Assembly: GCA_003605055.1 (NCBI GenBank)
Contig: QZKP01000048.1
Coordinates: 1-64,000 of the forward strand
DNA: 64,000 bases
Source: Desulfarculus sp.
Lineage (GTDB): Bacteria > Desulfobacterota > Desulfarculia > Desulfarculales > Desulfarculaceae
Reading direction: 5' to 3'
Part shown: one piece after another, positions 15,746 through 42,675 of the stretch
Numbering within the stretch: the first letter of the stretch is position 1
How the letters are laid out: every line of letters begins with the position of its first letter
Translations under genes and position numbers: made by a program
Notes under the pieces: generated by a model
Seen by the model: the letters and a program-made list of their open reading frames with translations, nothing else
Database searches by the model: none
What the model was told of the DNA's origin: nothing

Positions 15746-15786
15746 GGGGTTTGGTCCTCGTTGGGTGTAGGCGAAGAGGCAGCCGC

Positions 15787-18023: not shown

Positions 18024-18072
18024 CGCTTCACTCCCCTGCCCTGCACCCGCCGCTGAGCCCCGGCCTGCGCGC

Positions 18073-18891
18073 CTACCAGGCGGTCCAGCCGCCGTCCATC
18101 ACCAGGTTGGCCCCGGTCATGTAGGCCGAGGCGTCCGAGAGCAAAAACACCACCGCTCCATTGTACTCCTCGGGCCGGGCCATGCGGCCCAGAGGCACCC
18201 GGGACTCATAGGCCTCCACGAACTGCTGATCCTGGTTATTATAAACGCCCCCCAGGGTCAGGCAATTCACCCGCACCCCGCGCTCTCCCCAGTAGGTGGC
18301 CAGATAACGGGTCAGGTTGAGCAGGGCGCTCTTGGAGGCGCTGTAGGCCACGGGCTTGAAGAACTCCTGCCCTTGGGCGCGGCGGTAGGCGTATAGGCGC
18401 TGGTCCGGCGAGACCAGGCCGTAGGTGGAGCAGATGTTGATGATGGAGCCGCGGCCGGCCTGGGCCATGGTTCCGCCGAAGACCTGGCAGCACAAAAACA
18501 CGCCCTTGGCGTTGACCTCCATCACCCGGTCCCAGGAGGCCTCGGGGTAGGTCTCAAAGGGGCCGTTCTCCTGCACCGGCGCATCGGGCGGCGAATCCAG
18601 AGCCGCGTTGTTGATCAGGCCGTGGGGCGCTCCCCAGCGCTCCTGGACTCCCGCCAGGGCCTGTTCCAGGGAGTCGCGCCGGGTCACGTCCGCGGCCAGA
18701 CAGAGCAGGCGCCGGTCGTCGGCCAGGTCGCCGAAAATCCGGCGGCGCTCCGGGTCCGAGACCTGGCGGTCCAGCACCGCCACCAGGGCCCCGCGGCCCA
18801 GCAGCTCCCGGGCGTACTGGCTGCCCAACTGGCCCAGGCCACCGGTTATGACCACCACTTTCCCGGCGATATTGAACTGCTCAGGGCTCAT
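18073..18891 (-). CDS. SDR-family oxidoreductase (PtmA-like)
   Basis: 272 residues from the ATG at 18891, chosen over 18900 and 18924 because GGA lies upstream and the Rossmann motif then begins near residue 10. Motifs are ITGGLGQLGSQYA, NNAALD and AYSASKSALLNL (catalytic Tyr/Lys), with an insertion before the Tyr. It ends DGGWTAW. It is closely similar to the SDR at 38590-39417, especially the C-terminal 70 residues; both also sit next to NeuA-type genes. It resembles PtmA-type oxidoreductases of flagellin-glycan loci. Probable role: reduction or oxidation of a nonulosonate or its precursor. Confidence 0.85.
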   Translation of the reverse strand: MSPEQFNIAGKVVVITGGLGQLGSQYARELLGRGALVAVLDRQVSDPERRRIFGDLADDRRLLCLAADVTRRDSLEQALAGVQERWGAPHGLINNAALDSPPDAPVQENGPFETYPEASWDRVMEVNAKGVFLCCQVFGGTMAQAGRGSIINICSTYGLVSPDQRLYAYRRAQGQEFFKPVAYSASKSALLNLTRYLATYWGERGVRVNCLTLGGVYNNQDQQFVEAYESRVPLGRMARPEEYNGAVVFLLSDASAYMTGANLVMDGGWTAW

Positions 18892-18950
18892 GCTGTCCAT
18901 CAGTCTGCCAGATAATCTTGGCAATCATTTGGCCTGCGTTCCGGCGGTGC

Positions 18951-19751
18951 CTAACCCTGCTGGGAATTAACAACCTCGGCCTCAGGCAAAAACTCTTCAA
19001 GCATCGGCTTTTCAATGACAGAAGTTAGGCGGGGCCAATCGGCGGTCAACAAAAGCAGGTTGGCAGAATACTGGTCCAGCCTACCGCCCAAGGAATATAC
19101 GATCTCGGCAAGAAAAGTGTAGGGATGCACCCAACTGGTTTTTGAGCGCAGGGCGACCCGCGGGCCGTTGCGGTAATTTATTAACGCCTTGGTGTGGGGT
19201 TGCAAGATGGCCAAAATATTGGGAAAATAAGCTCTTACTTCCTTCGGCGGCACGTGCTGCAGAACAGAGGTCGAGATAACGAAGTCCGGCGAGAACGCTT
19301 TGCCCTCTGCCAAGGATTCCCTGCTGATGACCGCGCAAAGCGGCATTTTCTCTGTCAGCAAAACCTGTCCAACAGCTTTCAATCCTCTACAAAAGAAATC
19401 CGGTACCGTATCCATTCCAAAATAATTCCCAGGCTCAAGATAATTTATTAACTTGCGACCGACCCTTAAGGCGCCGCAGCCATAATCCAGGCAGCGGTGA
19501 TGCGGCTGCATGCCTGCTTCAATTAATATATTTAAATACTTTTCCCCAGACCGATCAAACTCCTGTTGGTCTTTGGGTATTCTTCCCAGGCTGGGGTGCC
19601 TTTCGTCTCGCTTTAAGGCCTTGATCGTCTTATAGGTGTAATAGGCGCTAAAGGGCTCCTCGGGAAGCGCCAGTTTCCACAAGTAATAAGGCGCCCGTGC
19701 CCTTAGACACCAAAACTGGTGCGCCAACCAGTTTATCTTGCCTCTAAACAT
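18951..19751 (-). CDS. Class I SAM methyltransferase
   Basis: 266 residues. RCLDYGCGALRVGRKLINYL is motif I, FGMDTVP the acidic motif, and SVLQHVPPKEVRAYFPNI a typical methyltransferase post-motif. Base composition is clearly more AT-rich than both neighbours in the operon, which suggests it was inserted by transfer. A GGGAG box precedes the ATG by 5 bases. It likely O- or N-methylates a sugar residue of the glycan. There is no membrane or secretion signal. Confidence 0.78.
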   Translation of the reverse strand: MFRGKINWLAHQFWCLRARAPYYLWKLALPEEPFSAYYTYKTIKALKRDERHPSLGRIPKDQQEFDRSGEKYLNILIEAGMQPHHRCLDYGCGALRVGRKLINYLEPGNYFGMDTVPDFFCRGLKAVGQVLLTEKMPLCAVISRESLAEGKAFSPDFVISTSVLQHVPPKEVRAYFPNILAILQPHTKALINYRNGPRVALRSKTSWVHPYTFLAEIVYSLGGRLDQYSANLLLLTADWPRLTSVIEKPMLEEFLPEAEVVNSQQG

Positions 19752-19772
19752 ACTGCTCCCGGGGCTTGGGAC

Positions 19773-20825
19773 TCAGTCCCCTAAGTCTTGCCACCGGATG
19801 TTTTCGTGGGCCGCCAGGTCCTTGTTCAGGCGCCGGCCCAGAATCCCGTCCAGTTCATAGGGCGGCAATCCGTCATTGGGCGAGCGTATGGCCACGTCCG
19901 CGGCGGTTAAAACCGTCCCCACATTCAGGTCGCGGGCGGCCACCAGCTTCTTGCCCATCTTGTATAGGGGCTTTTTCTCGCTGGGATAGGCCCTCTTGAC
20001 GCCGTCGCCTACGGCCACCCGGGCCCGCCGCAGGTCGCGGACCAGCTTGCGCAGGCCGGGCCGCTCCAAGGAAAAGGCATGATCCGTGCCTTTCATGGCC
20101 CGGTTGAGGGTGAAGTGCTTTTCCACCACCCGGGCCCCCAGCATGTAGGCGGTCAGGTCCATGGCGATGCCGCTCACGTGAGAGGACAGGCCCACCACCA
20201 CCTCCGGAAACTCCTGCCGGAAGGTGGTCAATACCCGCAGGTTCAACTCCTCGAAGGCCGGCGGATAGCCCGCCGTGCACTGCAAAAGACACAGTTGCGG
20301 GTTCAGGGGCATGACCGCGTCCACCGCCCGGCGCACGTCGTCCATGGTGGCGCCGCCGGTGCTGACGATCATGGGCTTGCCGAAAGAGGCTATGTACTTG
20401 AGCAGGGGGGTGTTGAGCAGATCGCCCGAGGCCATCTTAAAGGCCGGCGCCCCGAGCTGGTTCATCAACTCGGCGCTGCCGAAATCAAACACGCTGGCAA
20501 ATAAGGTTATGCCTAATTCTTTGGCGTACTGTTGGAGTTCAGCGATCTGCTCCCGGCTGAGCTCCAAGAACTCACGGTGCTCGCCGTAAGTGGTGCCGAA
20601 GCTGTTTTCATGGTCATAAGGGGCGTTGTACAACTCGGGAGTGAAGAGGTTCTTATTATCCCGCTTTTGAATCTTGACCGCGTCGGCCCCGCATTCCTTG
20701 GCTGCGGCGATGAGCTGCCTGGCCTGGTCCATGTCGCCCTGATGGTTGTGGCCGATCTCGGCTATCACATAGCAGTCGCTGTCGTCGCTGATGAGGGTGC
20801 CGTCTATGGTTAACTCACGGGGCAT
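19773..20825 (-). CDS. N-acetylneuraminate synthase family protein (NeuB type, copy 1)
   Basis: 350 residues from ATG 20825, preceded by GGAAAGGTG. The open frame reaches 20915, but those 30 residues are not family-like. A TIM barrel (1-270) shows YVIAEIGHNHQGD, ADAVKIQKRDN, FKMASGDL, LLQCTAGYP and the GLSSHVSG region. A C-terminal SAF/antifreeze-like domain (LVAARDLNVGTVLTAADV) completes the architecture. Enzymes of this family condense PEP with a 6-carbon N-acyl sugar to make a 9-carbon keto acid. Operon partners (NeuA-type, SDR, ALDH, transketolase) suggest a modified or non-standard sugar substrate. Confidence 0.9.
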   Translation of the reverse strand: MPRELTIDGTLISDDSDCYVIAEIGHNHQGDMDQARQLIAAAKECGADAVKIQKRDNKNLFTPELYNAPYDHENSFGTTYGEHREFLELSREQIAELQQYAKELGITLFASVFDFGSAELMNQLGAPAFKMASGDLLNTPLLKYIASFGKPMIVSTGGATMDDVRRAVDAVMPLNPQLCLLQCTAGYPPAFEELNLRVLTTFRQEFPEVVVGLSSHVSGIAMDLTAYMLGARVVEKHFTLNRAMKGTDHAFSLERPGLRKLVRDLRRARVAVGDGVKRAYPSEKKPLYKMGKKLVAARDLNVGTVLTAADVAIRSPNDGLPPYELDGILGRRLNKDLAAHENIRWQDLGD

Positions 20826-20926
20826 ACGCGCGCACCTTTCCGAGGTTTTAGAGATCCCCAGCAACGGGTACATAACCATATCAAAAAACTCCCCCAGGCA
20901 CACGGCGGGCAGCATCCTGCCACGGC

Positions 20927-25107: not shown

Positions 25108-26109
25108 TCAATTCCCGGGCAGCGGCCGGGCCACCACCCGCAGGTGGCTGCTGAGCCGGTGGGCAGCCAAAAAGTCCTGAAAGGCCTGGCGCAGGCCCTC
25201 GTCGTCGCTCTGCACGATATCCCTTAAAAAGGGGGCCACCGCCAAGGATGCATCCACAGCCAAGGCGTTGCGCACGATATCAACGTCCAGGCGGCCCGGG
25301 GTCTCCATTTCCAGGATCTCAAATCCGCAGCGCTGCAAGAGCAGGCGCACCCCCTCCAGGGACAGCAGGTTCAGATGGTACGGCGGCTGCACCGCCTTAG
25401 AGTGGCGGCCCAGAACCCGAATGTCAAATCCGTTGCAGGTCAGGGTGGTGACTACCAGCAGGCCCTCCGCATTCATCACCCGCAGGGCCCCCCGCAGAAA
25501 GGCGGCCGGCTCGAACAGATGCTCCAATACCTCGAAGCTGGCGGTCAGGGAGGCCTGGAACTCGCCTGGCTGCAGGTCCTCAATCCTCTTTTCCGCGACC
25601 TGGAACCCCTTTCCCCGGCAGACCGCCGCCAGAGGCGGAGAGCAGTCCACGCCCTGCACCTGGGCAAAGGCTCCGGTTTTTTGCACCTCCTCCAGCAGGG
25701 TGCCGTAGCCGCAGCCCAGGTCCAGGAAGGAGCCCCGGGCCAGGCCATAGCGCTGGGCCAGGTCAGACAGATAAGCAGCGCGGGGGATGAAGATCTTTTC
25801 CCGCCGGCTGTCCTCGGTGGCTTTGTAAAAGTCCGTGGCCCAAAATTTAACCGAAGGGGCCTCCTGGTAATAGCGGGCAATCATCTCCGGGGCGGGCCGG
25901 GGGGAATTGTATAGGCTGTGGCAGGCATCGCAAAAGACATAGGCAAAACCGTCCTTGTCAAAGGCCGGGCGTGATCTCTTGGTACCGCAGGCCGGGCAGG
26001 CCACCGCCCGGAACCTGTATTTATCCTGAAAATAATCGCGGGCGTCGGCCTGGGCCAACTCCAAGTAGCGCCCAAAAACGTCCTGCGGCCTGATGTCCTC
26101 TTCCTTCAT
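25108..26109 (-). CDS. Class I SAM methyltransferase with N-terminal zinc-ribbon-like motif
   Basis: 333 residues from ATG 26109; the frame stays open to 26460, but that part is antisense to the SDR gene. Paired cysteines CPACG and CDACH, about 25 residues apart near residues 38-65, look like a zinc ribbon. The SAM domain follows with FLDLGCGYGTLLEEV and SFEVLEHLFEP. This two-part layout is common in sugar methyltransferases of glycan loci. It is the first gene of the minus-strand operon and divergent from the SDR at 26294. A TATAAT box lies 71 bases upstream of the ATG. Confidence 0.83.
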   Translation of the reverse strand: MKEEDIRPQDVFGRYLELAQADARDYFQDKYRFRAVACPACGTKRSRPAFDKDGFAYVFCDACHSLYNSPRPAPEMIARYYQEAPSVKFWATDFYKATEDSRREKIFIPRAAYLSDLAQRYGLARGSFLDLGCGYGTLLEEVQKTGAFAQVQGVDCSPPLAAVCRGKGFQVAEKRIEDLQPGEFQASLTASFEVLEHLFEPAAFLRGALRVMNAEGLLVVTTLTCNGFDIRVLGRHSKAVQPPYHLNLLSLEGVRLLLQRCGFEILEMETPGRLDVDIVRNALAVDASLAVAPFLRDIVQSDDEGLRQAFQDFLAAHRLSSHLRVVARPLPGN

Positions 26110-26293: not shown

Positions 26294-27052
26294 ATGAGCG
26301 CGGAGCAGAGCTTCCAGGGGCAGACCGCCCTGGTCACCGGCGGCACCCGGGGCATCGGGGCGGCCATCGTCCAGGCCCTGGTCCAGGCTGGGGCCCAGGT
26401 GATCGCCACTGGCCGCGACCCAGAGGCGGTGAGGCGGTTGAACCAGGACCCAGTAGCCACCCAGGAAGGCCAAGTGGCCTATTGGGCGGCGGATTTCGCC
26501 CACCCGGCTTCGCTGGCCGATTTCCTGGCCAAGGTGGAGGGCCTGGAGCGGCTGGAGGTCTGCGTGAACAACGCAGGCATTAACGTGATCCGGTCCACCA
26601 ACGAGCTGAGCGAGGCCGAGTTCGAGCTGATAGACCGGGTTAACCTGCGGGCGCCCTTCTTGGTGGCCCAGGCCGCATCCCGGGTCATGGCCCGGGCCGG
26701 CTATGGCCGGGTGGTCAACATCGCCTCCATCTGGGGGGTGATCAGCAAGCCGGGCCGGGCGGCTTACACCGCCAGCAAGCACGGGTTGGTGGGCCTGACC
26801 AAGACGCTGGCCCTGGACCTGGCCCCCACGGGGGTGCTGGTCAACGCGGTCTCGCCGGGCTTCACTCTCACCGAGCTCACCCGCGACTCCCTGAGCGCGG
26901 AGGAGATGGCCAGCCTGGCGGCGCAGGTGCCCTTGGGCCGCCTGGCCCAGCCCGAAGAGATGGCCCGGGTGGTTCTCTTCTTGGCCAGCCGGGAGAACAC
27001 CTATATCACCGGGCAGAACATCGTGGTGGATGGAGGCTTTTCCATTGTCTGA
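26294..27052 (+). CDS. SDR-family oxidoreductase
   Basis: 252 residues. ATG 26294 has a perfect AGGAGG four bases upstream; the frame extends back to 26093, but that part is antisense to the methyltransferase gene. Classical SDR motifs: VTGGTRGIGAAIVQAL (TGxxxGxG), NNAGIN, and AYTASKHGLVGL with the catalytic Tyr/Lys, ending VVDGGFSIV. It is more FabG-like than the two PtmA-like SDRs in this window. It overlaps the cyclase gene, so it probably reduces the cyclase product (a keto-cyclitol) or another keto sugar. Confidence 0.88.
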   Translation: MSAEQSFQGQTALVTGGTRGIGAAIVQALVQAGAQVIATGRDPEAVRRLNQDPVATQEGQVAYWAADFAHPASLADFLAKVEGLERLEVCVNNAGINVIRSTNELSEAEFELIDRVNLRAPFLVAQAASRVMARAGYGRVVNIASIWGVISKPGRAAYTASKHGLVGLTKTLALDLAPTGVLVNAVSPGFTLTELTRDSLSAEEMASLAAQVPLGRLAQPEEMARVVLFLASRENTYITGQNIVVDGGFSIV

Positions 27053-28127
27053 GCAGCTCGGCTTCAGCGTAAAGAGCCTGCGCCGCGACTACAGCGTCAC
27101 CTTTGTGGATGACTTCGCCGCCGCTCTGGCCGCCGCCCTGCGTCCGGGCGACACCCTGTTGGTGGACCGCCGCCTGGCCGAGCTCTACGCCGGCCGGCTG
27201 GAGCCGCTGCTGGCCCAGAGCCCCCACCTGCTGCTGAAGGCCAGCGAGGGGCAAAAGGAGTTCAGCCGCCTGAGCGAGATCATCACCTTCTTGGTGGAAA
27301 AGGGCTTTCGCAAGAACCACCGCCTGGTAGCAATAGGCGGAGGAGTGGTCCAGGACATCACTGGCTTTATCGCCTCGATTCTTTTTCGCGGGGTGGGATG
27401 GCTGTTCGTCCCCACCACCCTGCTGGCCCAGGCCGATAGCTGCATCGGCAGCAAGACCTCCATCAACTTCGGCCCCTACAAGAACCAACTGGGCACCTTC
27501 TATCCGCCCTCGGCCATCTTCGTAGACACCTCGCTCCTGGACACCCTGAGCGAGTTGGAGATACGCTCGGGCCTGGGGGAGATGATCCACTATTTCCTGG
27601 TCAACGGCCGGGCCGAGTTCGAGTTCATCCGGGACAGTTACGACGCCTGCCTGCGTGACAAGGTGGTGCTGGGCGAGGCCATCGCCCGCAGCCTGGCCAT
27701 CAAGCGGGCCATGATTGAGCGTGACGAGTTCGACCAGGGACCCCGCCAAGTGTTCAACTACGGCCACTCCTTTGGCCACGCCATAGAGACCCTCACCGAC
27801 TACGCCACCCCCCACGGGGTGGCGGTGTGCTTCGGCATGGACCTGGCCAACTTCCTCTCCGCCCGCCTGGGCTACATCGCGGAAGACCTGCGCCAGGAGC
27901 TGCGCCCCCTGCTGGCCAAGAACTGGGGCCAGGCCCGCCTAAGCCAGATAGAGCCCGGGCAGCTCATCGCCGCCCTGGGCAAGGACAAGAAGAACGTGGG
28001 CCGCCAGATCAAGGTGATCCTGACCAGGGGCCTGGGGGACATGTTCAAGACCACCCTGGAGGTGGACGAGCGCTGCCGCGGCTGGCTGCAAGAGTACTTC
28101 CGCCAGGCGGCCCGGGAGGGGAATTGA
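27030..28127 (+). CDS. Sugar-phosphate cyclase, 3-dehydroquinate synthase superfamily
   Basis: 365 residues from ATG 27030. A TTG at 27045 has GGAGG eight bases upstream and may be the true start (360 aa). NAD-site GGGVV at 103-107; DSCIGSKTSINFG (136-148) and KNQLGTFYPP (151-160). Metal ligands are Glu184, His246 and His262. The conserved Lys (Lys225) and Arg239 are present. His187 stands where dehydroquinate synthases have a conserved Lys (GLGEMIHY here against GLAEVIKY). NFG.YKN.LGT resembles the 2-epi-5-epi-valiolone synthase subgroup more than housekeeping AroB. Partners are an SDR, dehydrogenases, a KdsB-like transferase and an SIS isomerase. Likely product: a C7 cyclitol or related ring, not shikimate. 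Confidence 0.85.
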   Translation: MEAFPLSEQLGFSVKSLRRDYSVTFVDDFAAALAAALRPGDTLLVDRRLAELYAGRLEPLLAQSPHLLLKASEGQKEFSRLSEIITFLVEKGFRKNHRLVAIGGGVVQDITGFIASILFRGVGWLFVPTTLLAQADSCIGSKTSINFGPYKNQLGTFYPPSAIFVDTSLLDTLSELEIRSGLGEMIHYFLVNGRAEFEFIRDSYDACLRDKVVLGEAIARSLAIKRAMIERDEFDQGPRQVFNYGHSFGHAIETLTDYATPHGVAVCFGMDLANFLSARLGYIAEDLRQELRPLLAKNWGQARLSQIEPGQLIAALGKDKKNVGRQIKVILTRGLGDMFKTTLEVDERCRGWLQEYFRQAAREGN

Positions 28128-28231
28128 TTCCGGCCGCGGCCAGCCTGAGGCGGACTTGTAAAGTTTTCATGCTTTGTTATGCTCATTTTGGCGCGCGGCG
28201 CCGTTGTTTTTACCACCCAAGGACGTAAATC

Positions 28232-29176
28232 TTGTCGGTTGCCCCTCTGAAAGTGCTGCTGGCGCCCTCTTCTTTCGGCGCCAACGATCCTGCCCCGCTG
28301 GCGCGCCTGGCCCAGGCCGGTCTGGAGCTGGTGGACAACCCTTACAAGCGCAAGCTGACCCAGGAGGAGCTGCTCACGCTCCTGCCCGGGGTCAGCGGGA
28401 TCATCGCCGGCCTGGAGCCCCTCAACCGCGAGGTGCTTTCCCGCAGCCAGCTCAAGGTCATCTCCCGGGTGGGGGTGGGCCTGAGCAACGTGGACCTGGA
28501 GGCGGCGGCCGAGCTGGGCATCGCCGTGCGCTACACCCCTGACGCCCCCACCATCGCCGTGGCCGAGCTTACCGTGGGCTGCCTGCTCTCCCTGCTGCGC
28601 CGGGTGATGGAAATGGACCGGACCCTACACCAGTGCCGCTGGGAAAAGTGCGTGGGCTATCAGTTGGCCGGGCGCACCGTGCTCCTGGTGGGGCTGGGAC
28701 GCATCGGCCGGGCCGTGGCCCGCCTGCTGGCGCCCTTCGGGGTGCGGCTGCTGGCCGCGGATCCCGCTGTTGAGCAGACCCCCCAAGGGGTCGAACTAGT
28801 GAGCTTGGCTCAGGGCCTGCCCCAGGCGGACGTGATCAGCCTGCACGCCAGCGGCAGCCAGCAGGTGCTGGGCCCGGAGCAGTTCGCCCTGATCAAGCCC
28901 GGCGCCTTTTTGCTCAACCCCTCCCGGGGCGAGCTGGTGGACGAGGCCGGCCTGCAGGCGGCCCTGGACTCGGGCCGCCTGGCCGGGGCCTGGCTGGACG
29001 CCTTTCAACAAGAGCCCTATGCCGGCCCCTTGACCGGCTACGCCAACGTAATCCTCACCCCCCACGTGGGCAGCTATTCCGCGGAATGCCGTCTGGACAT
29101 GGAGATGCAGGCCGTGAATAATCTTCTGGCGGCCCTGGCCGAGCAGGGGCTCTTGCCAGAGGCCCAGCCAAGGTGA
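28232..29176 (+). CDS. D-isomer-specific 2-hydroxyacid dehydrogenase (SerA-like)
   Basis: 314 residues from TTG 28232, with AAGGA eight bases upstream. NAD site: VGLGRIGRAVARLL. Catalytic triad candidates are Arg in NPSRGELVDE, Glu in FQQEPY, and His in TPHVGSYS. There is no ACT domain, so it is a single-substrate type rather than regulated SerA. The reaction is NAD-linked interconversion of a 2-hydroxy acid and 2-keto acid. Inside the cyclase operon it may act on a sugar-derived keto acid. About 100 bp separate it from the cyclase gene. Confidence 0.87.
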   Translation: MSVAPLKVLLAPSSFGANDPAPLARLAQAGLELVDNPYKRKLTQEELLTLLPGVSGIIAGLEPLNREVLSRSQLKVISRVGVGLSNVDLEAAAELGIAVRYTPDAPTIAVAELTVGCLLSLLRRVMEMDRTLHQCRWEKCVGYQLAGRTVLLVGLGRIGRAVARLLAPFGVRLLAADPAVEQTPQGVELVSLAQGLPQADVISLHASGSQQVLGPEQFALIKPGAFLLNPSRGELVDEAGLQAALDSGRLAGAWLDAFQQEPYAGPLTGYANVILTPHVGSYSAECRLDMEMQAVNNLLAALAEQGLLPEAQPR

Positions 29177-29181
29177 AGCTC

Positions 29182-29940
29182 ATGAGGATTGTGGCCCTGA
29201 TACCGGCGCGCATGGCCGCCACCCGCTTTCCCGGCAAACCCCTGGCCCTGATCAAGGGCCTGCCCATGATCGAGCACGTGCGCCGCCGGGCCCTGCTCTG
29301 TGCCCTGTTGGACGAGGTGCTGGTGGCCACCTGCGACCCGGAAATATGCCGAGTGGTGGAGGAGGCCGGCGGCAAGGCCGTTATGACCGCCGACACCCAC
29401 CTGCGCTGCACGGACCGCATCGCCGAGGCGGCCCTAGGCATGCAGGCCGACGTGGTGGTGAACCTGCAGGGCGACGAGCCCCTGGTCATGCCCGAGATGC
29501 TGGAGCTGGTGGCCCGGCCCCTGCTGGAGGACCCGGAGCTGCCCGCGGCCAACCTGGTCAGTCCTATAACTGACCAGGCGGAGTTCAACGACCCCAACGC
29601 CCCCAAGGTGGTCACCAATCTGGCCGGTGACATCCTCTACATCTCCCGGGAGCCGATACCCTCGGGCAAAAAGGCCGATTCGCAGCAGTACCGCAAGCTC
29701 AAGCAACTGGGCATCATCGCCTTCCGGGGTGACTTTTTGCAGACCTTCACCCGCCTGAGCCCCACTCCCTTGGAGGTCATAGAGTCGGTGGACATGAACC
29801 GGGCCCTGGAGCACGGCTACCGGGTGCGGGCGGTGGAGGTGCCCGGACGCATGGTTGGGGTGGACCTGCCCGGCGACGTGGCCCGAGTGGAGGCCTTATT
29901 GGAGAGTGACCCTCTCTATCCCCGCTATCGCTTAGGTTGA
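29182..29940 (+). CDS. KdsB-like CTP:ulosonate cytidylyltransferase (variant)
   Basis: 252 residues from ATG 29182, with AAGGTGA before it. A GTG at 29173 that overlaps the upstream stop is the alternative. VALIPARMAATRFPGKPL is the nucleotide-binding signature. VVVNLQGDEPLV and GVDLPGDVARVEALL are KdsB landmarks. In canonical KdsB the loop reads H.SGT(D/E)R; here it is THLRCTDRIAEA, and the last third (EVIESVDMNRALEHG) also departs from housekeeping KdsB. It probably activates a keto acid or cyclitol other than plain Kdo. This is the fourth cytidylyltransferase in the window. Family confident, substrate not. Confidence 0.85.
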   Translation: MRIVALIPARMAATRFPGKPLALIKGLPMIEHVRRRALLCALLDEVLVATCDPEICRVVEEAGGKAVMTADTHLRCTDRIAEAALGMQADVVVNLQGDEPLVMPEMLELVARPLLEDPELPAANLVSPITDQAEFNDPNAPKVVTNLAGDILYISREPIPSGKKADSQQYRKLKQLGIIAFRGDFLQTFTRLSPTPLEVIESVDMNRALEHGYRVRAVEVPGRMVGVDLPGDVARVEALLESDPLYPRYRLG

Positions 29941-29958
29941 GGGAAGAGGCGAGGCACA

Positions 29959-31002
29959 ATGGCCGATAAGCTATACAAGGTGGGAATAGCCGGCTACGGA
30001 GTGGTGGGCAAGAGACGCCATCAGTTCATCAACCAGCACCCGAACCTGCGCGTGGTGGCGGTCTGCGACCAGAGCTTCAGCAAGCCGGGCGCCACTCAAA
30101 ACGGTGTAAAGTGCCTGGGCAACTACCAGCAACTGCTCAATGAGCCGCTTGAGGTGCTGTTCGTGAGCCTGCCCAACTACCTGGCCGCCGAGGTGACCAT
30201 GGCCGGCCTTGAGAGGGGCCTGCACGTCTTTTGCGAAAAGCCGCCGGGCCGGACGGTGGAGGATGTCAAGCAGGTGATGGCGGTGGAAAGGGCCCACCCC
30301 GGCCTGGCCCTGAAGTACGGCTTCAACCACCGCTACCACGACTCGGTGCGCAAGGCCCTGGCGCTGATCCATTCCGGCGACCTGGGCCAGATCATCAACC
30401 TGCGCGGGGTTTACGGCAAAAGCAAGATCATCCCCTTCTCCGGCGGCTGGCGGGCCGAGCGCAAGCTGGCCGGCGGCGGCATTCTCCTGGACCAGGGCAT
30501 CCACATGGTGGACCTGATGCGCCTTTTCTGCGGCCAGTTCCGGGAGGTGAAGAGCTTCGTCAGCAACCGCTACTGGAACCATGACGTGGAGGACAACGCC
30601 TACGCCCTGATGCGCGACGAACAGGGTCGCGTGGCCGTGCTGCACTCCACGGCCACCCACTGGCAGCACCGCTTTTCCATGTACCTCTCCCTCAGCGAGG
30701 GCTACCTGGAGTTGAGGGGCATCCTTTCCGGCAGCAAGAGCTACGGCGAGGAGAAGCTGATCATCGGCCGGCGCAGCGAAGAGAGCGTGGGCACCTTGCA
30801 GCGGGAGGTCATCACCTACCTGGAAGACAACTCCTGGCGCGATGAGGTGTTCGAGTTCGCCGAGGACATACAAAACGGCCGCCCGGTGCGCTCGGGCAGC
30901 AGCGCCGAGGCCCTGGCCACCATGAAGCTGGTCTACCGCATTTATTATGCTGACCCCCAGTGGCGGGCGACCTATAATATTGCCGATCCTGACGCGGATT
31001 GA
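29959..31002 (+). CDS. Gfo/Idh/MocA family oxidoreductase
   Basis: 347 residues. IAGYGVVGKRRHQF is the dinucleotide-binding motif and FCEKPPGRTVED carries the catalytic Lys. GGGILLDQGIHMVDLMRLF is a typical C-terminal domain helix. AGAGGCGAGG precedes the ATG. It acts on sugars or cyclitols with NAD(P). In the operon of the sugar-phosphate cyclase it is a candidate inositol-dehydrogenase-like enzyme for the cyclitol product. Confidence 0.87.
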   Translation: MADKLYKVGIAGYGVVGKRRHQFINQHPNLRVVAVCDQSFSKPGATQNGVKCLGNYQQLLNEPLEVLFVSLPNYLAAEVTMAGLERGLHVFCEKPPGRTVEDVKQVMAVERAHPGLALKYGFNHRYHDSVRKALALIHSGDLGQIINLRGVYGKSKIIPFSGGWRAERKLAGGGILLDQGIHMVDLMRLFCGQFREVKSFVSNRYWNHDVEDNAYALMRDEQGRVAVLHSTATHWQHRFSMYLSLSEGYLELRGILSGSKSYGEEKLIIGRRSEESVGTLQREVITYLEDNSWRDEVFEFAEDIQNGRPVRSGSSAEALATMKLVYRIYYADPQWRATYNIADPDAD

Positions 31003-31024
31003 CCCTTAGGCAAAGGCGAGCCCC

Positions 31025-31648
31025 ATGAGTCTGACCAAAGACATCTTCCGGCAGAGCAGCGGGCTGGCGCAGTTCGCCAAGGGCTATTTCCAGTGCCTAG
31101 GTCAGTTGTTGGAGGGACTGGACCTCAAGGCCATCGAGGCCTTTGTGGACCAGTTGGAGCAGGCCCGCGAGGCCGGCAATACCGTTTTCATAGTGGGCAA
31201 CGGGGGCTCGGCGGCCACCGCCGCCCATATGGCCAATGACCTGGCCACGGATGTCTTGCGCAAGGCCCGCGGCGGCAAACCGTTCCGGGTCTGGGCCCTC
31301 ACCGACAGCGTGCCCTGCCTGACCGCCATCGCCAACGACGAGTGCTACGAGAACATCTTCCTTAACCAGTTGAAGATTCATTACCGTCCGGGAGACAAGC
31401 TCATCGCCATATCCGCCAGCGGCAACTCGCCCAACGTGGTGGCCGCCGCCAGATGGGTCAAGGAGGCTGGCGGCGCGGTCATGGGCATGCTGGGCTTCGA
31501 CGGCGGCAGGCTCAAGGAGTTCTGCGACGTGGCCATCCACGCGCAGACGCCGGCCGGCGACTACGGACCCGTGGAGGACATCCACGTCATCATTGACCAC
31601 CTAATCTCTAATTGGCTGATCTACAAAAGCGGGGCTGCGTCGCGTTAG
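31025..31648 (+). CDS. SIS-domain phosphosugar isomerase (GmhA-like)
   Basis: 207 residues. NGGSAATAAHMANDL is the phosphate-binding signature of the GmhA/SIS group, and AISASGNSPNVVAAARW is the second. The ending HVIIDHLISNWLI matches GmhA. GmhA isomerises sedoheptulose 7-phosphate to D-glycero-manno-heptose 7-phosphate. It is last in the cyclase operon. Both a cyclase of the EEVS type and this isomerase could share sedoheptulose 7-phosphate as substrate, so they may compete or work in sequence. No heptose kinase or adenylyltransferase (HldE) is seen in the window. Confidence 0.85.
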   Translation: MSLTKDIFRQSSGLAQFAKGYFQCLGQLLEGLDLKAIEAFVDQLEQAREAGNTVFIVGNGGSAATAAHMANDLATDVLRKARGGKPFRVWALTDSVPCLTAIANDECYENIFLNQLKIHYRPGDKLIAISASGNSPNVVAAARWVKEAGGAVMGMLGFDGGRLKEFCDVAIHAQTPAGDYGPVEDIHVIIDHLISNWLIYKSGAASR

Positions 31649-34641: not shown

Positions 34642-35424
34642 ATGCACCTGTCTTCACCCAGCCTCAGGAAAAAGATCGCCGCCGGCGGCCTTACTGTTGG
34701 CTCCTGGATCACCCTGGGCCATCCCGGCATCGCCGAGATCATGGCCCGGGCCGGCTTTGACTGGCTGGTGGTGGACCTGGAGCACAGCACCATTTCCCTG
34801 GAGCAGGCAGGTGAGCTGATTCGCACCATAGATTTGTGCGGCGTGCCCCCCCTGGTGCGCCTGTCGGCCAACGATCCAGTGCAGATCAAACGCCTCATGG
34901 ACGCCGGCGCCCACGGCGTCATCGTGCCCATGGTCAACAGCGCCCAGGAGGCCGAGGCGGCGGTGCGGGCCGTGCAGTATCCGCCCCGGGGCCAGCGGGG
35001 GGTGGGCCTGGGCCGGGCCCAGGGCTATGGCGCGGCCTTTGCCCAGTATCGGCGCTGGCTGGAGGACGAGGCCGTAGTCATCGTGCAGATCGAGCACGTC
35101 CAGGCCGTGGAAAACCTGGCCTCCATCCTGGCGGTGGATGGCGTAGACGGCTGCATCGTGGGCCCCTACGATCTTTCCGGCTCCATGGGCCGGCCCGGGG
35201 ACTTCGACCACCAGGACATGAAGGCGGCCATGCAGCGCATCCTGGCCGAGGCCGCGCGCAGCGGCAAGCCGGCCGGCCTGCACGTGGTGGAGCCGGACCC
35301 GGCCGAGCTGCGGCGCCGGATACAGGAAGGCTTCCGCTTCTTGGCCTACAGCGTGGACATCCGCATGCTGGACACCGCCTGCCGCAGCCTTCTGGACGAA
35401 CTGAAGAACGCCCCCCCGGCCTGA
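34642..35424 (+). CDS. HpcH/HpaI-type pyruvate aldolase
   Basis: 260 residues, TIM barrel. VVDLEHSTISLEQ supplies the catalytic His, VRLSANDP the Arg region, VQIEHVQAVEN the metal Glu and GPYDLSGSMG the metal Asp. Class II HpaI aldolases condense or cleave pyruvate with aldehydes to give 2-keto-3-deoxy-4-hydroxy acids. In a catabolic setting it would sit with aromatic-degradation genes, but here it lies between SGNH and GT-B genes with a CMP-sugar cytidylyltransferase two genes further on. It may make a 3-deoxy-ulosonate by aldol addition. That is inference. Confidence 0.88.
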   Translation: MHLSSPSLRKKIAAGGLTVGSWITLGHPGIAEIMARAGFDWLVVDLEHSTISLEQAGELIRTIDLCGVPPLVRLSANDPVQIKRLMDAGAHGVIVPMVNSAQEAEAAVRAVQYPPRGQRGVGLGRAQGYGAAFAQYRRWLEDEAVVIVQIEHVQAVENLASILAVDGVDGCIVGPYDLSGSMGRPGDFDHQDMKAAMQRILAEAARSGKPAGLHVVEPDPAELRRRIQEGFRFLAYSVDIRMLDTACRSLLDELKNAPPA

Positions 35425-36891: not shown

Positions 36892-37883
36892 TGCGGGCGC
36901 TGTTCATAGGCCTGGGCTCCATCGGCCGGCGGCACCTGCGCATCCTGCGCGAGCTGGCGCCCCATACTGAGATATTGGCCCTGCGCTCTGGCCAGGGTCC
37001 GGCCCAAGTGCCGGAGCTGGCCTCGGCCGGCGGCCGCTCCTTCGGCACTTTGGAACAGGCCCTGGAACAGCGGCCCGACTTCGCGCTGGTGGCCAACCCC
37101 ACCAGCCGGCACCTGGAAACCGCCCTGGCCCTGGCCCGGGCCGGGGTGCCCTTTCTGCTGGAGAAGCCGGTGGGCCACCAGGAGGCGGGCCTGGAGGAGT
37201 TGGCGACTGAGGTGGCCAGCCGCGGCCTGCCCGTGCTGGTGGGTCTGCAACTGCGCTACCACCCCGCCTTCGGGCAACTGAGCGCCTGGCTGGAGCAAGG
37301 GGCCATCGGCCGGCCCCTGTCGCTCAGGGCCGAGGTGGGTCAGTGGCTGCCGGACTGGCGGCCGGGCGCGGACTACCGCGCCTCGCAGACCGCCCGGGCC
37401 GAGCTGGGCGGCGGCGTGATCCTGGAGCTGGTGCACGAGCTGGACCTGGCCCTGGCCTGCCTGGGGCCGGCCAAGGGCGTGGCCTGTGCGGCCGGCCGCC
37501 TCTCCGGCCTGGAGATGGACGCCGAGGACCTGGCCGAGATCAGCATCAGCCACGCCTCGGGCGGCCTGAGCCAGGTGCACCTGGACTGCATCCAGCCCGG
37601 CTACACCCGCTGGCTCAAGGTCATCGGCGAGGGCGGCATCATCATGTGGCAGCAGGACGCGGGCTGGCTGGAGCTGCAACGGCCGGGCCAGGTGCCGCAG
37701 CGGTTGAGCGACCCGCCCGGCTTCACTCGCGACGACCTGTTCCGGGCCCAGATGCGCCACTGGCTGGCCGTGTTGGCCGGCCGGGAGGAGCCGCGGGTAA
37801 GCCTGGCCCAGGGCCTCGCCGCCACCCGCCTGGCCCTGGCCGCCAAGCGGGTCGCAGCCGAGCAAAGGACGGTGCAACCATGA
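36891..37883 (+). CDS. Gfo/Idh/MocA family oxidoreductase
   Basis: 330 residues from GTG 36891, with AGGAGAGG upstream. The frame extends much further back, but that part overlies the GT-B gene. Motif ALFIGLGSIGRRHLRIL, and FLLEKPVGHQ with the catalytic Lys. GGGVILELVHELDLALACLG is the C-domain. It is tied by overlaps to the cytidylyltransferase (ATGA) and through it to an SDR. This trio matches loci where a Gfo/Idh enzyme, a CMP-sugar synthetase and a PtmA-like SDR make a flagellar or O-antigen nonulosonate. Confidence 0.87.
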   Translation: MRALFIGLGSIGRRHLRILRELAPHTEILALRSGQGPAQVPELASAGGRSFGTLEQALEQRPDFALVANPTSRHLETALALARAGVPFLLEKPVGHQEAGLEELATEVASRGLPVLVGLQLRYHPAFGQLSAWLEQGAIGRPLSLRAEVGQWLPDWRPGADYRASQTARAELGGGVILELVHELDLALACLGPAKGVACAAGRLSGLEMDAEDLAEISISHASGGLSQVHLDCIQPGYTRWLKVIGEGGIIMWQQDAGWLELQRPGQVPQRLSDPPGFTRDDLFRAQMRHWLAVLAGREEPRVSLAQGLAATRLALAAKRVAAEQRTVQP

Positions 37884-38593
37884 GCCGAGGCCTGACCTTG
37901 GGGCTGATCCCGGCCCGGGGCGGCAGCAAGGGCGTGCCGGGCAAGAACCTGCGCCCGGTGGCCGGCCGGCCGCTCATCGCCCGCGCCATCGCCTGCGGAT
38001 TGGCCTGCCCTTCCGTTGACAAGGTGGTGGTCTCCACCGACAGTCAGGCCATCGCCGCCGCGGCCCGCGAGCACGGGGCCGAGGCGCCCTTTATGCGGCC
38101 GGCCGAGCTGGCCAGCGACATTGCGCCCATGCTGCCGGTGATGCAGCACGCCATCACCGCCTGCGAGGCGCACTATGGCCAGACGGTGGCGGTGTTGGTG
38201 CTGCTGGACTGCACCGCGCCCCTGCGGCGGGTGGAGGACGTGGAGGCGGCGCTCAGGCTCTTGGCCGCGCCGGACTGCGACGCGGTGGTCAGCGGCTCGC
38301 CGGCCCAGCGCAGCCCCTACTTCAACATGGTGCGGCCGCGAAATGGCTACGTGGATCTGTTCGCTCCCCTGCCGGGCGGGGTGGGCCGGCGCCAGGACGC
38401 GCCGCCGGTCTGGGACCTGAACACTGTGGTCTGGGCCTACAGGCGCGCCGCCCTCATGGAGGAGGCCGCCCGCCTGCCCCGGCGCACCCGGCTCTACGAG
38501 GTGCCCCGGGAGCGGGCCCTGGACCTGGACAGCGAGCTGGACTTCCAGGTGCTGGAGGCGCTGCTGGCCCGCGAGCAGGAGGAGCGGCCATGA
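37880..38593 (+). CDS. CMP-acylneuraminate-type cytidylyltransferase (NeuA family, copy 2)
   Basis: 237 residues from ATG 37880, overlapping the upstream stop as ATGA. Signature LIPARGGSKGVPGKNLRPVA, then GRPLIARAI and KVVVSTDSQAIAAAA. VLLDCTAPLRRVEDVEAAL is the usual 'D.T.P.R' region. It transfers CMP to a nonulosonic-type acid. It is more similar to copy 3 (39668-40393) than to copy 1. No NeuB gene is in this operon, so its substrate may come from the aldolase two genes upstream or from elsewhere. Confidence 0.9.
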   Translation: MSRGLTLGLIPARGGSKGVPGKNLRPVAGRPLIARAIACGLACPSVDKVVVSTDSQAIAAAAREHGAEAPFMRPAELASDIAPMLPVMQHAITACEAHYGQTVAVLVLLDCTAPLRRVEDVEAALRLLAAPDCDAVVSGSPAQRSPYFNMVRPRNGYVDLFAPLPGGVGRRQDAPPVWDLNTVVWAYRRAALMEEAARLPRRTRLYEVPRERALDLDSELDFQVLEALLAREQEERP

Positions 38594-39417
38594 GCGAGGC
38601 CCGCGACATCTTCGACCTGAGTGGCCGGGTGGTGCTCATCGTGGGCGGGGCCGGCGGCATCGGCCGGCGCATGGCCGCGGCCATTGCCCGGGCCGGGGCC
38701 CAGGTGCTCATCGCCGACCAGGACAGCGGCCGCTGCCAGGAGTTGGCTCGGGCCATCGCCGATGAGATCGGCGGCCGGCTGGCCGGCCTGGCTATGGACG
38801 TGACCCAGGAGGCCGGCGTGGTGCAGGCCTTCGCCGGCCTGGGCCAGGAATACGGCCGCCTGGACGGTCTGGTCTACAATGTCATGGCCAAGCCCTCAGG
38901 TTACTACCGACCCTTTGACCAGTACCCCTGGGAGACCTGGCGGCGAGTGCTGGAAACCAACCTGGGCGGGGCCTTCCTCTGCTGCCGGGAGGCGGGCAAG
39001 CTCATGCTGCCGGCCGGCCAAGGCAGCGTGGTGCTCACGGCCAGCGTGTACGGGGTGGTGGCCCCGGACCAGCGCATCTATGAGGGCTCCACCAGCGCGG
39101 GCAACATCTACGGCGGCGGCGACCCCCTGAGCTGCCCGGCCGCCTACTCGGCCAGCAAGGGCGGCCTCATCGCCCTGGCCCGCCACCTGGCCGCCCTGTG
39201 GGGGCCGGCCGGGGTGCGGGTGAACTGCCTCACTCCCGGCGGGGTCTATGACGGCCAGGAGGAAGCCTTTCACCAGGCCTACCAGGCCCGCACGCCCCTG
39301 GGGCGCATGGCCGCCTTCACCGACTTCGACGGCGCGGCGGTGTTTCTTCTGAGCGAGGCCGCGGCCTACATGACCGGGGTCAACCTGGTGGTGGACGGCG
39401 GCTGGACCGCCTGGTGA
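38590..39417 (+). CDS. SDR-family oxidoreductase (PtmA-like, second copy)
   Basis: 275 residues, start overlapping the cytidylyltransferase stop (ATGA). LIVGGAGGIGRRMAAAIA is the NAD site and AYSASKGGLIALA has the catalytic Tyr/Lys. An insertion precedes the Tyr, as in the 18073-18891 SDR. Both end MTG.NLV.DGGWTAW. It is last in the plus-strand operon and faces a 256-bp inverted-repeat element starting 12 bp after the stop. Likely acts on a CMP-sugar precursor. Confidence 0.88.
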   Translation: MSEARDIFDLSGRVVLIVGGAGGIGRRMAAAIARAGAQVLIADQDSGRCQELARAIADEIGGRLAGLAMDVTQEAGVVQAFAGLGQEYGRLDGLVYNVMAKPSGYYRPFDQYPWETWRRVLETNLGGAFLCCREAGKLMLPAGQGSVVLTASVYGVVAPDQRIYEGSTSAGNIYGGGDPLSCPAAYSASKGGLIALARHLAALWGPAGVRVNCLTPGGVYDGQEEAFHQAYQARTPLGRMAAFTDFDGAAVFLLSEAAAYMTGVNLVVDGGWTAW

Positions 39418-39429
39418 GAGGCGGGGCCC

Positions 39430-39685
39430 AGCCCGGATATTTCGTGAGGGCTGGGCGGTATTGTAATCTAGGCTTTATGCGCGTGGCGGTTAGGGAAAAT
39501 CATTGCAATCTGCCGGGTACGGTTTGTACCCTGCCCGGCACAGCCAGCCGCCGGCAGACAAGGCGTCTGGCGAGCGAGCGCCGCAGGTGTAGCCAAAGCT
39601 ACATCCAGGCGCGAGCGAAGCCGGCAACACAGTATGCCGGGGGCTGGCGAAGCCGGACGCCCGGCCTTCATGAGATATCCGGGCT
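39430..39685. mobile_element. MITE-like element with 18-bp terminal inverted repeats
   Basis: The left end AGCCCGGATATTTCGTGA (39430-39447) and the right end (39668-39685), read in reverse complement as AGCCCGGATATCTCATGA, agree at 16 of 18 positions. Inside are nested inverted repeats: GGCGTCTGGC (39562-39571) with GCCGGACGCC (39652-39661); TGCCGGG (39511-39517) with CCCGGCA (39534-39540); and a hairpin GCGCC..GG-TGTAGC / GCTACA-TC..GGCGC (39578-39612, CAAA loop). There is no coding frame of note and no obvious target duplication. The right end forms the last codons and stop of the cytidylyltransferase at 39668. It could also act as a bidirectional terminator between convergent genes. Confidence 0.65.
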
Positions 39686-40393
39686 AATCTTTTTTCCCGA
39701 TAGAATCAGGTCCGCCAGTTGTAGGTGCTGCTCGCTGTCAATGGACAGGGAGCGCTCCTCGGGCATGACGTAGGGGTGGATCACCCGGCCCCAGATGGAG
39801 TTCTGCTCCAGGAGCACCTCTCGCCGCGTCAGGTAGATGGCGCCGTTGCGCATGTAGGCCGACGGTTGGTAGTCCTGGCGGCGGGTGCCCTCTTTTTCCT
39901 CGATGCAGAAGGGCAGCAGCACACCGTCTTCGATGCGCTTCATCAGGATGGGGTGCACGTCAAAAACCTGCACCACGCTGATCACCGAGTCGCAGCCGCC
40001 GGCCAGGGCCAGTTCCAGGGCGCCGGCGATGTCCTGGGGCGCGCGCAGGGGCGCGGTGGGCTGCAGGAGCATCACCCAGTCCAGGGTCAGGCCGTCGGCC
40101 TCCTCCACGAAGCGCGCCGCGTGCTGCAACACCGGCAGGGTGGGCACCTGGTCGCCGGCCAGCTCGGCCGGCCGCAGGAAGGGCGCCTCGGCCCCGAAGC
40201 GCCGGGCGATCTCGGCCGTCTCGGGGTCGTCGGTGCTTACGATCACGCGGTGGAACAGCTGCCGCGCGGCCAGGGCGCACTGGATGGTCCAGGCGATGAG
40301 CGGCCGGCCGCCCACCAGGCGTACGTTCTTGCGGGGCACCCCCTTGGAGCCGCCCCGGGCCGGGATCACGGTCAGCACCTTGGCGGCGCTCAT
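39668..40393 (-). CDS. CMP-acylneuraminate-type cytidylyltransferase (NeuA family, copy 3)
   Basis: 241 residues. VIPARGGSKGVPRKNVRLVG signature, GRPLIAWTI, RVIVSTDDPETAEIA and LLQPTAPLRAPQDI. It overlaps the dehydrogenase gene upstream by 4 bp. Its last six codons, including TGA, lie inside the right terminal repeat of the adjacent element, so the C-terminus was probably altered by an insertion. The divergent NeuB/NeuC operon (42730-44938) has no cytidylyltransferase of its own, so this copy is a good candidate to activate its product. Confidence 0.9.
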   Translation of the reverse strand: MSAAKVLTVIPARGGSKGVPRKNVRLVGGRPLIAWTIQCALAARQLFHRVIVSTDDPETAEIARRFGAEAPFLRPAELAGDQVPTLPVLQHAARFVEEADGLTLDWVMLLQPTAPLRAPQDIAGALELALAGGCDSVISVVQVFDVHPILMKRIEDGVLLPFCIEEKEGTRRQDYQPSAYMRNGAIYLTRREVLLEQNSIWGRVIHPYVMPEERSLSIDSEQHLQLADLILSGKKISPDIS

Positions 40394-41358
40394 GGCCGGG
40401 CCCCGGCCCAGACCTGCCCCTGCAGCCAGGCGGCCAGCTTCTTGGCCATGAACAGCTCGGTTTTGGCCATGGACTCCTTGGTGGCCCCGGCCAGGTGGGG
40501 CGTGATGATCAGGTTGTCGTGCTCCCGGGCATAGGCCAGAAGCGGGCTGTGGGGCAGGCCCTTGCCCGTCTCAGAGGCCAGCACGTCCAGGGCCGCACCG
40601 GCCAGGCGGCCGCTGCTCAGGGCCGCCAGCAGCGCCGCCTCGTCAATGAGCCCGCCCCGGGCGGTGTTGATGAGCACCGCGCCCTCGGGCAGCAGCTCCA
40701 TCTCCCGCTTGCCGATCATGCCCCTGGTCTGCTCGTTGAGCGGGGGGTGCAGGCTGAGCACATCACTGCCGGCCAGGAGCCGCTCCAGGCTTTCCACCCG
40801 GCGCACCCCGTCTCGCCACTTGATGGGGTCCGGGTCATAAGCCGCCACCTGCATGCCGAAGACCAGGCCGTAGCCAGCCACCTTGCGGCCCAGGCGGCCC
40901 AGGCCCACGCAGCCCAGACGGCGGTCCATGAGTTCGCGGCCCTTGAAGGCGTCGCGGTCCCAGCGGCCGCCGCGCACCGCGGCAAAGGCCGCCGGTATCC
41001 GGCGCACCAGGGCCAAGAGCAGGCCCCAGGTGTGCTCGGCCGTGGCGCTCACCGACTCCAGGAACTTCCACTCGCCCTGCAGGCTGAGCACGGTCAGGCC
41101 CCGCTGCCGGGCCTGCTCCAGGTCTATGTGGTCCAGGCCGGTGGTGGCGCTGAGGATGCAGCGCAGGCCCGGGGCGCTGTCCAGGACCTGGGCGTCTATC
41201 TGGTGGCCCAGGCGCACGATTAGCACCTGGAAGCCGGGCAGCCGCCGGAGCATCTGCTCCCGGTCCAGCTCCTCCTCCACCAGCTCGCCCAGGCCTAGAA
41301 GCACCCGCCGGGCCGGCTCGGTGAAGTCCCTGGGCTCCACATTGAGAATGCGAACCAT
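40390..41358 (-). CDS. D-isomer-specific 2-hydroxyacid dehydrogenase
   Basis: 322 residues from ATG 41358, with GGAGGTG nine bases upstream; a TTG at 41385 is less likely. NAD site GLGRLGRKVAGYG. NTARGGLIDEAAL holds the catalytic Arg and TPHLAGATKES the catalytic His. It belongs to the same broad family as the gene at 28232-29176, but the two are not close copies. NAD-linked reduction of a 2-keto acid, sugar-derived if the operon context holds. Confidence 0.87.
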   Translation of the reverse strand: MVRILNVEPRDFTEPARRVLLGLGELVEEELDREQMLRRLPGFQVLIVRLGHQIDAQVLDSAPGLRCILSATTGLDHIDLEQARQRGLTVLSLQGEWKFLESVSATAEHTWGLLLALVRRIPAAFAAVRGGRWDRDAFKGRELMDRRLGCVGLGRLGRKVAGYGLVFGMQVAAYDPDPIKWRDGVRRVESLERLLAGSDVLSLHPPLNEQTRGMIGKREMELLPEGAVLINTARGGLIDEAALLAALSSGRLAGAALDVLASETGKGLPHSPLLAYAREHDNLIITPHLAGATKESMAKTELFMAKKLAAWLQGQVWAGARP

Positions 41359-41386
41359 GCCTCCCCACCTCCGCTCCTCTGACAAC

Positions 41387-42532: not shown

Positions 42533-42572
42533 CTGTACTCCCCAGGGCCGGCGGCGGCCGCTTGGAGGCCAG

Positions 42573-42601: not shown

Positions 42602-42624
42602 GCGGGGCCTGGCCAAGGCCCTGC

Positions 42625-42653: not shown

Positions 42654-42675
42654 GATTCGCCAGTAAGGGGTGCTA

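Follow-up and report, generated by a model that had tools for sequence, protein, structure and literature searches.

Six genes of the same strand, each an intact open reading frame (ORF) and contiguous through overlaps or short gaps, lie at positions 26294-31648 of a 64,000-nucleotide stretch of Desulfarculus sp. DNA (assembly GCA_003605055.1, contig QZKP01000048.1, positions 1 to 64,000 of the forward strand), which as a whole is called the window here. They encode a short-chain dehydrogenase (SDR1), a sugar phosphate cyclase (CYC), a D-2-hydroxyacid dehydrogenase (HADH), a cytidylyltransferase resembling KdsB (KDSB), a Gfo/Idh/MocA oxidoreductase (GFO) and an isomerase resembling GmhA (SIS). 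The same labels had been proposed by an earlier reading of the letters (the sequence-only reading), and Pfam and NCBIfam agree with each of them; an HpcH/HpaI aldolase gene (HpaI) found further along the same strand was absent from that gene set, to which it probably belongs. The six-gene module is real, widespread and not described in the literature searched, where no account of such an operon or pathway was found; this is weak evidence of novelty, as most subscription journals lay outside the search. The genome of the window (G000; 3.6 Mb, Desulfarculaceae-like) has another AroB-family gene and another KdsB-type gene (G000:C5:68408), so that CYC and KDSB need not be housekeeping enzymes.

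Table 1. Position and supporting evidence for the operon genes and two associated genes of the window
Feature	Position	Strand	Evidence
SDR1, short-chain dehydrogenase	26294..27052	+	Pfam adh_short_C2
CYC, sugar phosphate cyclase	27030..28127	+	TIGR04425; own clade; dehydroquinate synthase (DHQS) pocket and fold
HADH, D-2-hydroxyacid dehydrogenase, PGDH/GhrB-like	28232..29176	+	Pfam 2-Hacid_dh
KDSB, KdsB-like cytidylyltransferase	29173..29940	+	PRK13368; narrowly TIGR00466
GFO, Gfo/Idh/MocA oxidoreductase	29959..31002	+	Pfam
SIS, GmhA-like isomerase	31025..31648	+	Pfam SIS_2; best PDB relatives are phosphoheptose isomerases
HpcH/HpaI aldolase, probable pathway member	34642..35424	+	Pfam HpcH_HpaI
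Methyltransferase, MT12 family recurring beside KDSB	25108..26109	-	Start inferred from congener protein

Recurrence of the gene set

Recurrence was surveyed in 82 loci, namely the best 80 of 197 CYC relatives in named genomes together with G210 and G287, many of the loci stopping at contig ends. Searched with phmmer at 1e-10, these loci contained CYC in 82 cases, SDR in 77, GFO in 60, HADH in 59, KDSB in 39 and SIS in 38, and in 75 adjacent pairs SDR1 was the gene immediately upstream of CYC, in the same orientation. Counted with family profiles, 20 of the 80 named loci have the complete set of six genes, and these 20 come from five named phyla as well as unassigned ones; 45 of the 80 have five or more. 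The co-occurrence in relatives on which the sequence-only reading depended is thus found, and its recurrence across phyla places the operon beyond chance. The congener genome G196 has all six genes in unchanged order, and the nearest named relative with the operon is a Desulfarculaceae metagenome-assembled genome (MAG). In the phylum of the window, profile searches of 395 genomes placed only four over the TIGR04425 cut-off, and KdsB-type genes were commoner than CYC. Because the 82 loci were picked through CYC itself, only the reciprocal searches described below test the converse association.

The proposed link to activation by cytidine triphosphate (CTP) is supported by the 44 well-flanked loci (those extending over 6 kb to either side), of which 40 contain a gene for a synthetase of cytidine monophosphate (CMP) sugars, either KDSB (29) or a PseF-like enzyme (14), with both in three; these genes were counted anywhere in the locus and some may serve other sugars. 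Bacteroidota loci have the PseF-like enzyme rather than KDSB. The four well-flanked loci without a CMP-sugar synthetase are the same four that have an acetolactate-synthase-like neighbour. A CYC subgroup (L035, L085, L100, L101, L113 and L114, from Microcystis, Verrucomicrobia, a Bdellovibrionaceae MAG and G287) combines SDR-CYC with an acetolactate-synthase-like thiamine pyrophosphate enzyme; GFO, HADH, SIS and KDSB were not seen at these loci, and some carry a NeuB-like gene.

The HpaI family is present in 26 of the 44 well-flanked loci, always above 220 bits, and adjoins KDSB in 15 adjacent pairs. HpaI and a HisC-type aminotransferase never occur together in these 44 loci; the aminotransferase and a second Gfo/Idh gene replace HpaI at L054, L076, L082, L092, L093, L095, L107 and L033, so that the product there may be an amino variant. 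The MT12 methyltransferase family gives strong hits (above 150 bits) in 16 of the 44 loci and weak ones in seven more (23 in total); the congener protein aligns from residue 118 of the long methyltransferase ORF of the window. A hydrolase of PF04199, a family named 'putative cyclase', recurs near CYC or KDSB (L065, L040, L041, L044, L092, L093 and L149) and might open a lactone. SDR-CYC also occurs at L109, whose contig is labelled a Thaumarchaeota MAG; transfer or contamination may be at work there. Matches of CYC in plasmid (115) and phage (15) records are all below 60% identity, and among the matches listed (60 of the 115 and 8 of the 15) those with annotation are AroB or other DHQS-family genes. 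Gene fusions were considered as a clue to the order of steps and dropped, since the long ORFs examined look like artefacts of an upstream start or like other domains.

Exchange of SDR1 and CYC with a phosphatase

In the pathway for 3-deoxy-D-manno-oct-2-ulosonic acid (Kdo), the HAD phosphatase KdsC dephosphorylates a sugar-acid phosphate, which is then activated by KdsB. For the order to which L107 belongs (NCBI Rhodospirillales; L107 itself is Terasakiella), the reciprocal searches took in 199 genomes, and a close KDSB relative was present in 41; CYC was found in 16 of these (15 over the cut-off, and as a split gene in G429), and in one of the 20 genomes examined among the 158 without KDSB. 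Where KDSB was at least 74% identical to the query, CYC was present in 11 of 11 genomes, against 5 of the other 30. Eighteen cyclase-less KDSB loci were chosen for comparison, comprising the congener G053, ten of the higher-scoring KDSB hits of the phylum and seven of the nine from the order of L107; G339 (L173) and G452 (L201) were placed in neither the cyclase nor the cyclase-less group. All seven loci of that order keep HADH, and five also have gfo2 and GFO. In six of them (alphaproteobacterial) a HAD phosphatase, matching PF13419 in the two scanned and homologous in the rest, sits between KDSB and HADH, the place taken by SDR1-CYC in related operons. Across the full comparison, 12 of 18 cyclase-less loci have a HAD-motif gene in the same orientation as KDSB and no more than 4 kb from it, against none of 41 cyclase loci (Fisher test, 1.7e-8). 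This value overstates the contrast, since L180 could be an ordinary Kdo operon and the lineages (one order, one genus with three loci, one family with two, and G339) are not fully independent of one another. No HAD motif was found near CYC or KDSB in the 83 cyclase loci. In the loci examined, then, SDR-CYC and a phosphatase exchange with one another. Among the ten cyclase-less loci of the phylum, seven have HpaI and four of these seven also HADH. The G339 genome has no CYC over the cut-off; one of its contigs, 4.1 kb long, carries KDSB-GFO-SIS and, next in line, a gene of the inositol-monophosphatase family.

KDSB itself passes the cut-off of the subfamily PRK13368 (296.1 bits, cut-off 255) and fails that of the kdsB equivalog NF003948 (174.2 bits, cut-off 281). 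According to PMC3149649, KdsB-type enzymes couple CMP to an ulosonic acid through its hydroxyl group at C2, and the catalytic Lys and the metal-binding Asp residues described there, mapped by motif, are kept as K22, D101 and D231 in 40 of 40 KDSB rows. Compared with eight housekeeping KdsB rows, one of which (L136) turned out to be KDSB-like, KDSB has C54 for Asp in 37 of 40 and D207 for Glu in 36 of 40. The KDSB tree, in which housekeeping branches reach lengths of up to 10 and are probably partly misframed, was used only for relations among KDSB rows. There, the KDSB proteins of eight of nine aminotransferase loci fall within one clade of ten rows (two of them, L073 and L074, from short contigs), the ninth (L068) being a long branch outside, and this suggests that KDSB sees the tailored product.

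It is proposed, tentatively and at somewhat less than even confidence, that the product of the module is a CMP-activated acidic sugar and that CYC and SDR1 stand in the place of the phosphatase; if SDR1-CYC does replace such a phosphatase, CYC would act on the ulosonate phosphate that the latter uses. Besides the overstated test value, several observations weigh against this proposal. The 12 loci with a HAD gene are not phylogenetically independent (six from one order, three from one genus, two from one family), no HAD gene was found at L199, the seventh locus of the order of L107, and in G053, which has HADH-KDSB and a PF04199 gene, neither CYC nor a phosphatase was found beside KDSB. An inositol-monophosphatase-family gene lies near CYC in L042 (13210-13950) and in L049 (1390-3334, directly after CYC), and at L095 a HAD profile gives a weak match at a distance of 6.7 kb. 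HADH is missing in 10 of 11 CYC loci of one cyclase clade, some of them cut by contig ends, and accompanies KDSB and HpaI in four cyclase-less loci at which no GFO or SIS was seen (L174, L175, L177 and L178). HpaI lacks a firm step in the pathway, and the whole G210 genome, which has CYC and KDSB, contains no PF03328 match; this absence and the lack of any overlap with the HisC-type aminotransferase also rule out, as a general rule, HpaI as the essential maker of the ulosonate. Finally, KDSB narrowly passes the kdsB equivalog TIGR00466 (161.7 bits, cut-off 155.2) and its best PDB relative is the capsule-type CMP-Kdo synthetase 1gq9, so that its substrate may be no more than Kdo or some other open ulosonate; we know of no precedent for a KdsB-type activation of a tertiary alcohol.

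Several of these points would be expected if two independent pathways served one glycan, SDR-CYC-GFO-SIS making one residue and HpaI-KDSB-HADH a CMP-3-deoxy-ulosonate, possibly CMP-Kdo, an arrangement that we consider unlikely. It would explain why KDSB, HADH and HpaI are found without CYC, why KDSB is just over TIGR00466 and why Bacteroidota loci have a PseF-like enzyme in its stead, and it agrees with the phylum-wide search for close GFO matches (above 350 bits), in which three of the four positive genomes among 395 have CYC over the cut-off. It sits poorly, however, with the presence of some CMP-synthetase gene in 40 of 44 cyclase loci, with KDSB and GFO being neighbours in 19 adjacent pairs, with the occurrence of GFO-related genes within cyclase-less KDSB operons of another order, and with the missing HAD phosphatase where CYC is present. 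The claim of the sequence-only reading that the six genes form a single pathway stands in part: co-occurrence supports it, but KDSB and HADH also occur as a unit without the cyclase.

The cyclase, its pocket and its possible substrate

CYC is a member of TIGR04425 (431.8 bits, cut-off 400) and scores below the cut-off of the aroB equivalog TIGR01357 (273.4 bits, cut-off 305). In a quick maximum-likelihood tree, which has some long branches and leaves out characterised EEVS and DOIS rows, the 83 CYC rows form one clade (SH-aLRT, an approximate likelihood-ratio test, 99) apart from 27 AroB rows. By score and by clade the cyclase thus lies outside housekeeping AroB, as had been predicted, and neither of the results named beforehand as contrary, a cyclase within AroB or a lack of co-occurrence in relatives, turned up. 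The other AroB-family protein of G000 (L001) has a branch length of 2.88 in the tree and may be diverged or badly framed. In a fold search, the AlphaFold2 model of CYC (pLDDT 89.9) is closest to DHQS structures (TM score 0.86, 28% identity), followed by DOIS and the EEVS ValA.

For DHQS, eleven residues of the pocket for 3-deoxy-D-arabino-heptulosonate 7-phosphate (DAHP) are listed in PMC6262012, and these were mapped to CYC by motif. Ten of the eleven are kept across the 83 CYC rows, except that one row has Thr for Asn; the remaining position, a Lys, is His in 26 of 83 rows, the window protein included, which accordingly keeps ten. Among the kept residues are the Lys and Arg that bind the DAHP carboxylate in DHQS; both are present in 83 of 83 CYC rows and are lost in two EboD-like proteins. 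These two cyclases differ at four of the DAHP-pocket positions and one of them sits in an annotated ebo cluster, EboD being thought to use sedoheptulose 7-phosphate (PMC5133447). Family-specific changes lie near the pocket in sequence (GGGxxQD in 79 of 83 rows and S144 in all 83), and C138 is a further fixed difference from AroB. From these sequence patterns we infer that the substrate of CYC may be carboxylated, related to DAHP and not the same. The retained DAHP pocket makes a carboxylated ulosonate phosphate a likelier substrate than sedoheptulose 7-phosphate, and the suggestion of the sequence-only reading that the latter is the direct substrate is weakened.

CYC could still be a sedoheptulose 7-phosphate cyclase of the EEVS or EVS kind, making a valiolone-type C7 cyclitol that SDR1 would reduce and GFO oxidise, with or without a transketolase as supplier; this we hold to be quite unlikely. 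The GmhA-like SIS would use the same metabolite, the best PDB relative of GFO is a myo-inositol 2-dehydrogenase, and PMC5133447 describes EVS as a sedoheptulose 7-phosphate enzyme whose place in the tree would make it pass for DHQS. Such a cyclase, however, leaves unexplained the carboxylate-binding pocket Lys and Arg retained in every CYC row, the link to KDSB, as KdsB-type enzymes act on ulosonic acids, and the exchange with a phosphatase.

Part of that alternative is the transketolase-family gene at 13832-15745, from which the sequence-only reading had derived the supply of sedoheptulose 7-phosphate. The gene is real and lies 11.3 kb from CYC. A transketolase was counted in one of the 82 loci, a survey with flanks of at most 10 kb that could therefore not count the window's own gene. 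A whole-genome check covered 19 cyclase genomes, that of the window included: the congener G196 has no transketolase at the matching place and no close relative genome-wide (best 31% identity), and split, two-subunit relatives lie 17-47 kb from CYC on the same contig in 6 of the 18 other genomes (G210, G421, G515, G523, G530 and G577), their position within 50 kb being a point in favour of a sedoheptulose 7-phosphate cyclase. The gene is thus confirmed and its link to the pathway unproven.

That CYC is a diverged AroB converting ordinary DAHP to 3-dehydroquinate, or to a quinate-like acid for a surface glycan, is very improbable: the nearly complete DHQS pocket and the DHQS structures as nearest folds would suit it, but G000 has another AroB-family gene, CYC stands apart as its own clade and shows fixed differences, C138 and S144 among them, and ordinary DAHP would leave GFO, SIS and HADH without a role.

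A possible pathway and what it would mean

The operon may represent one version of a widespread module of surface-glycan synthesis whose product is an acidic monosaccharide activated with CMP. The logic would be that of Kdo synthesis, in a CMP-ulosonate pathway of the Kdo type that includes a step resembling DHQS. In its full carbocyclic form, in which an aldoheptose 7-phosphate is oxidised to a hept-2-ulosonate phosphate that is closed by a DHQS relative in many phyla, this proposal is somewhat unlikely, and we infer every substrate, the order of steps and the action of KDSB on a carbocycle. Supply would start with SIS, which may turn sedoheptulose 7-phosphate into an aldoheptose 7-phosphate. 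SIS is far below the cut-off of the gmhA equivalog (95.7 bits, cut-off 209.45), with Asp in 41 of 42 rows at the position of the catalytic Glu of GmhA and His in 38 of 42 at that of its catalytic His; a GmhA homologue was present in 33 of 33 genomes searched, so that redundancy is uninformative. GFO would then oxidise C1 to give heptonate 7-phosphate. Its residues EKP, Asp and His are kept in 59 of 59 rows, and its relatives include glucose-fructose oxidoreductase, D-galactose 1-dehydrogenase and inositol dehydrogenases. Oxidation of C2 to hept-2-ulosonate 7-phosphate would fall to HADH, whose motif positions Arg, Glu and His are kept in 61 of 62 rows with one gap and whose family relatives include 2-ketogluconate reductase, PGDH and PdxB; its place before CYC is uncertain because of the four loci where it joins KDSB and HpaI and no GFO or SIS is seen. 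CYC, acting as dehydroquinate synthase does, would expel the phosphate of this C7 2-ulosonate 7-phosphate by elimination and close the carbocycle, SDR1 may reduce the ring ketone left by this chemistry, and KDSB would use CTP to activate the product of SDR1. Tailoring could be provided by HpaI and the methyltransferase, and in other lineages by the aminotransferase and the second Gfo.

The neighbouring genes mark a surface-polysaccharide region. On the divergent side lie the methyltransferase, an ABC transporter, a surface-carbohydrate protein, NeuB, a cytidylyltransferase and the transketolase; downstream lie MBOAT, the HpcH/HpaI aldolase, a second NeuB and a UDP-GlcNAc 2-epimerase. Positions 12571-20915 and 37343-44938 hold the two NeuB genes, three further CTP_transf_3 genes and the UDP-GlcNAc 2-epimerase gene, a content that suggests a nonulosonic-acid pathway, or two, next to the operon. 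One of these gene groups also includes the transketolase and an aldehyde dehydrogenase gene. At 39668-41385 a cytidylyltransferase gene and a 2-hydroxyacid dehydrogenase gene form another such pair, overlapping by four bases like HADH-KDSB, and orthologues of both are found in the same order in G053 (L149).

Several known systems share features with the module. CYC resembles AroB/DHQS in fold, metal ligands and DAHP pocket, but differs in its separate clade, its score below the aroB cut-off, its polysaccharide operons and its family-specific loop changes. With EEVS, EVS, DDGS and DOIS it has superfamily and fold in common, DOIS and ValA coming next after DHQS in the fold search, whereas its pocket is DHQS-like and its context is one of CMP-sugar and polysaccharide genes. 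The Kdo pathway (KdsA-KdsC-KdsB) is similar in that many of the cyclase-less relatives have a HAD phosphatase gene next to one of KdsB type; in contrast, the module has a cyclase and an SDR for the phosphatase, and the presence of GFO and HADH suggests that its ulosonate arises by oxidation. A carbocyclic precedent in surface glycans is bradyrhizose, the C10 bicyclic sugar of Bradyrhizobium O-antigen (PMC9912281 and PMC4743980); PMC4743980 suggests an eleven-gene cluster for it, and the word dehydroquinate is absent from the main text of that paper. As a candidate product of the module, bradyrhizose was set aside and serves as a structural precedent only. It is not known to be an acid.

TIGR04425, to which CYC belongs by the curated cut-off, is described as an AroB-related putative sugar phosphate phospholyase (cyclizing), and its model, classed as a hypothetical equivalog, names no substrate; what is added here is its context, its relatives and a proposed step, so that a named but substrate-less family gains an operon context and a testable substrate class. 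If the proposed route is true, the module would provide a carbasugar nucleotide of primary surface-glycan metabolism, and a Kdo-like pathway would have a branch point at which ring closure and dephosphorylation compete. Carbocyclic sugars, instead of being rare and confined to antibiotics and a few O-antigens, would then be common on bacterial surfaces, where such residues would withstand glycosidases and could escape sugar analysis.

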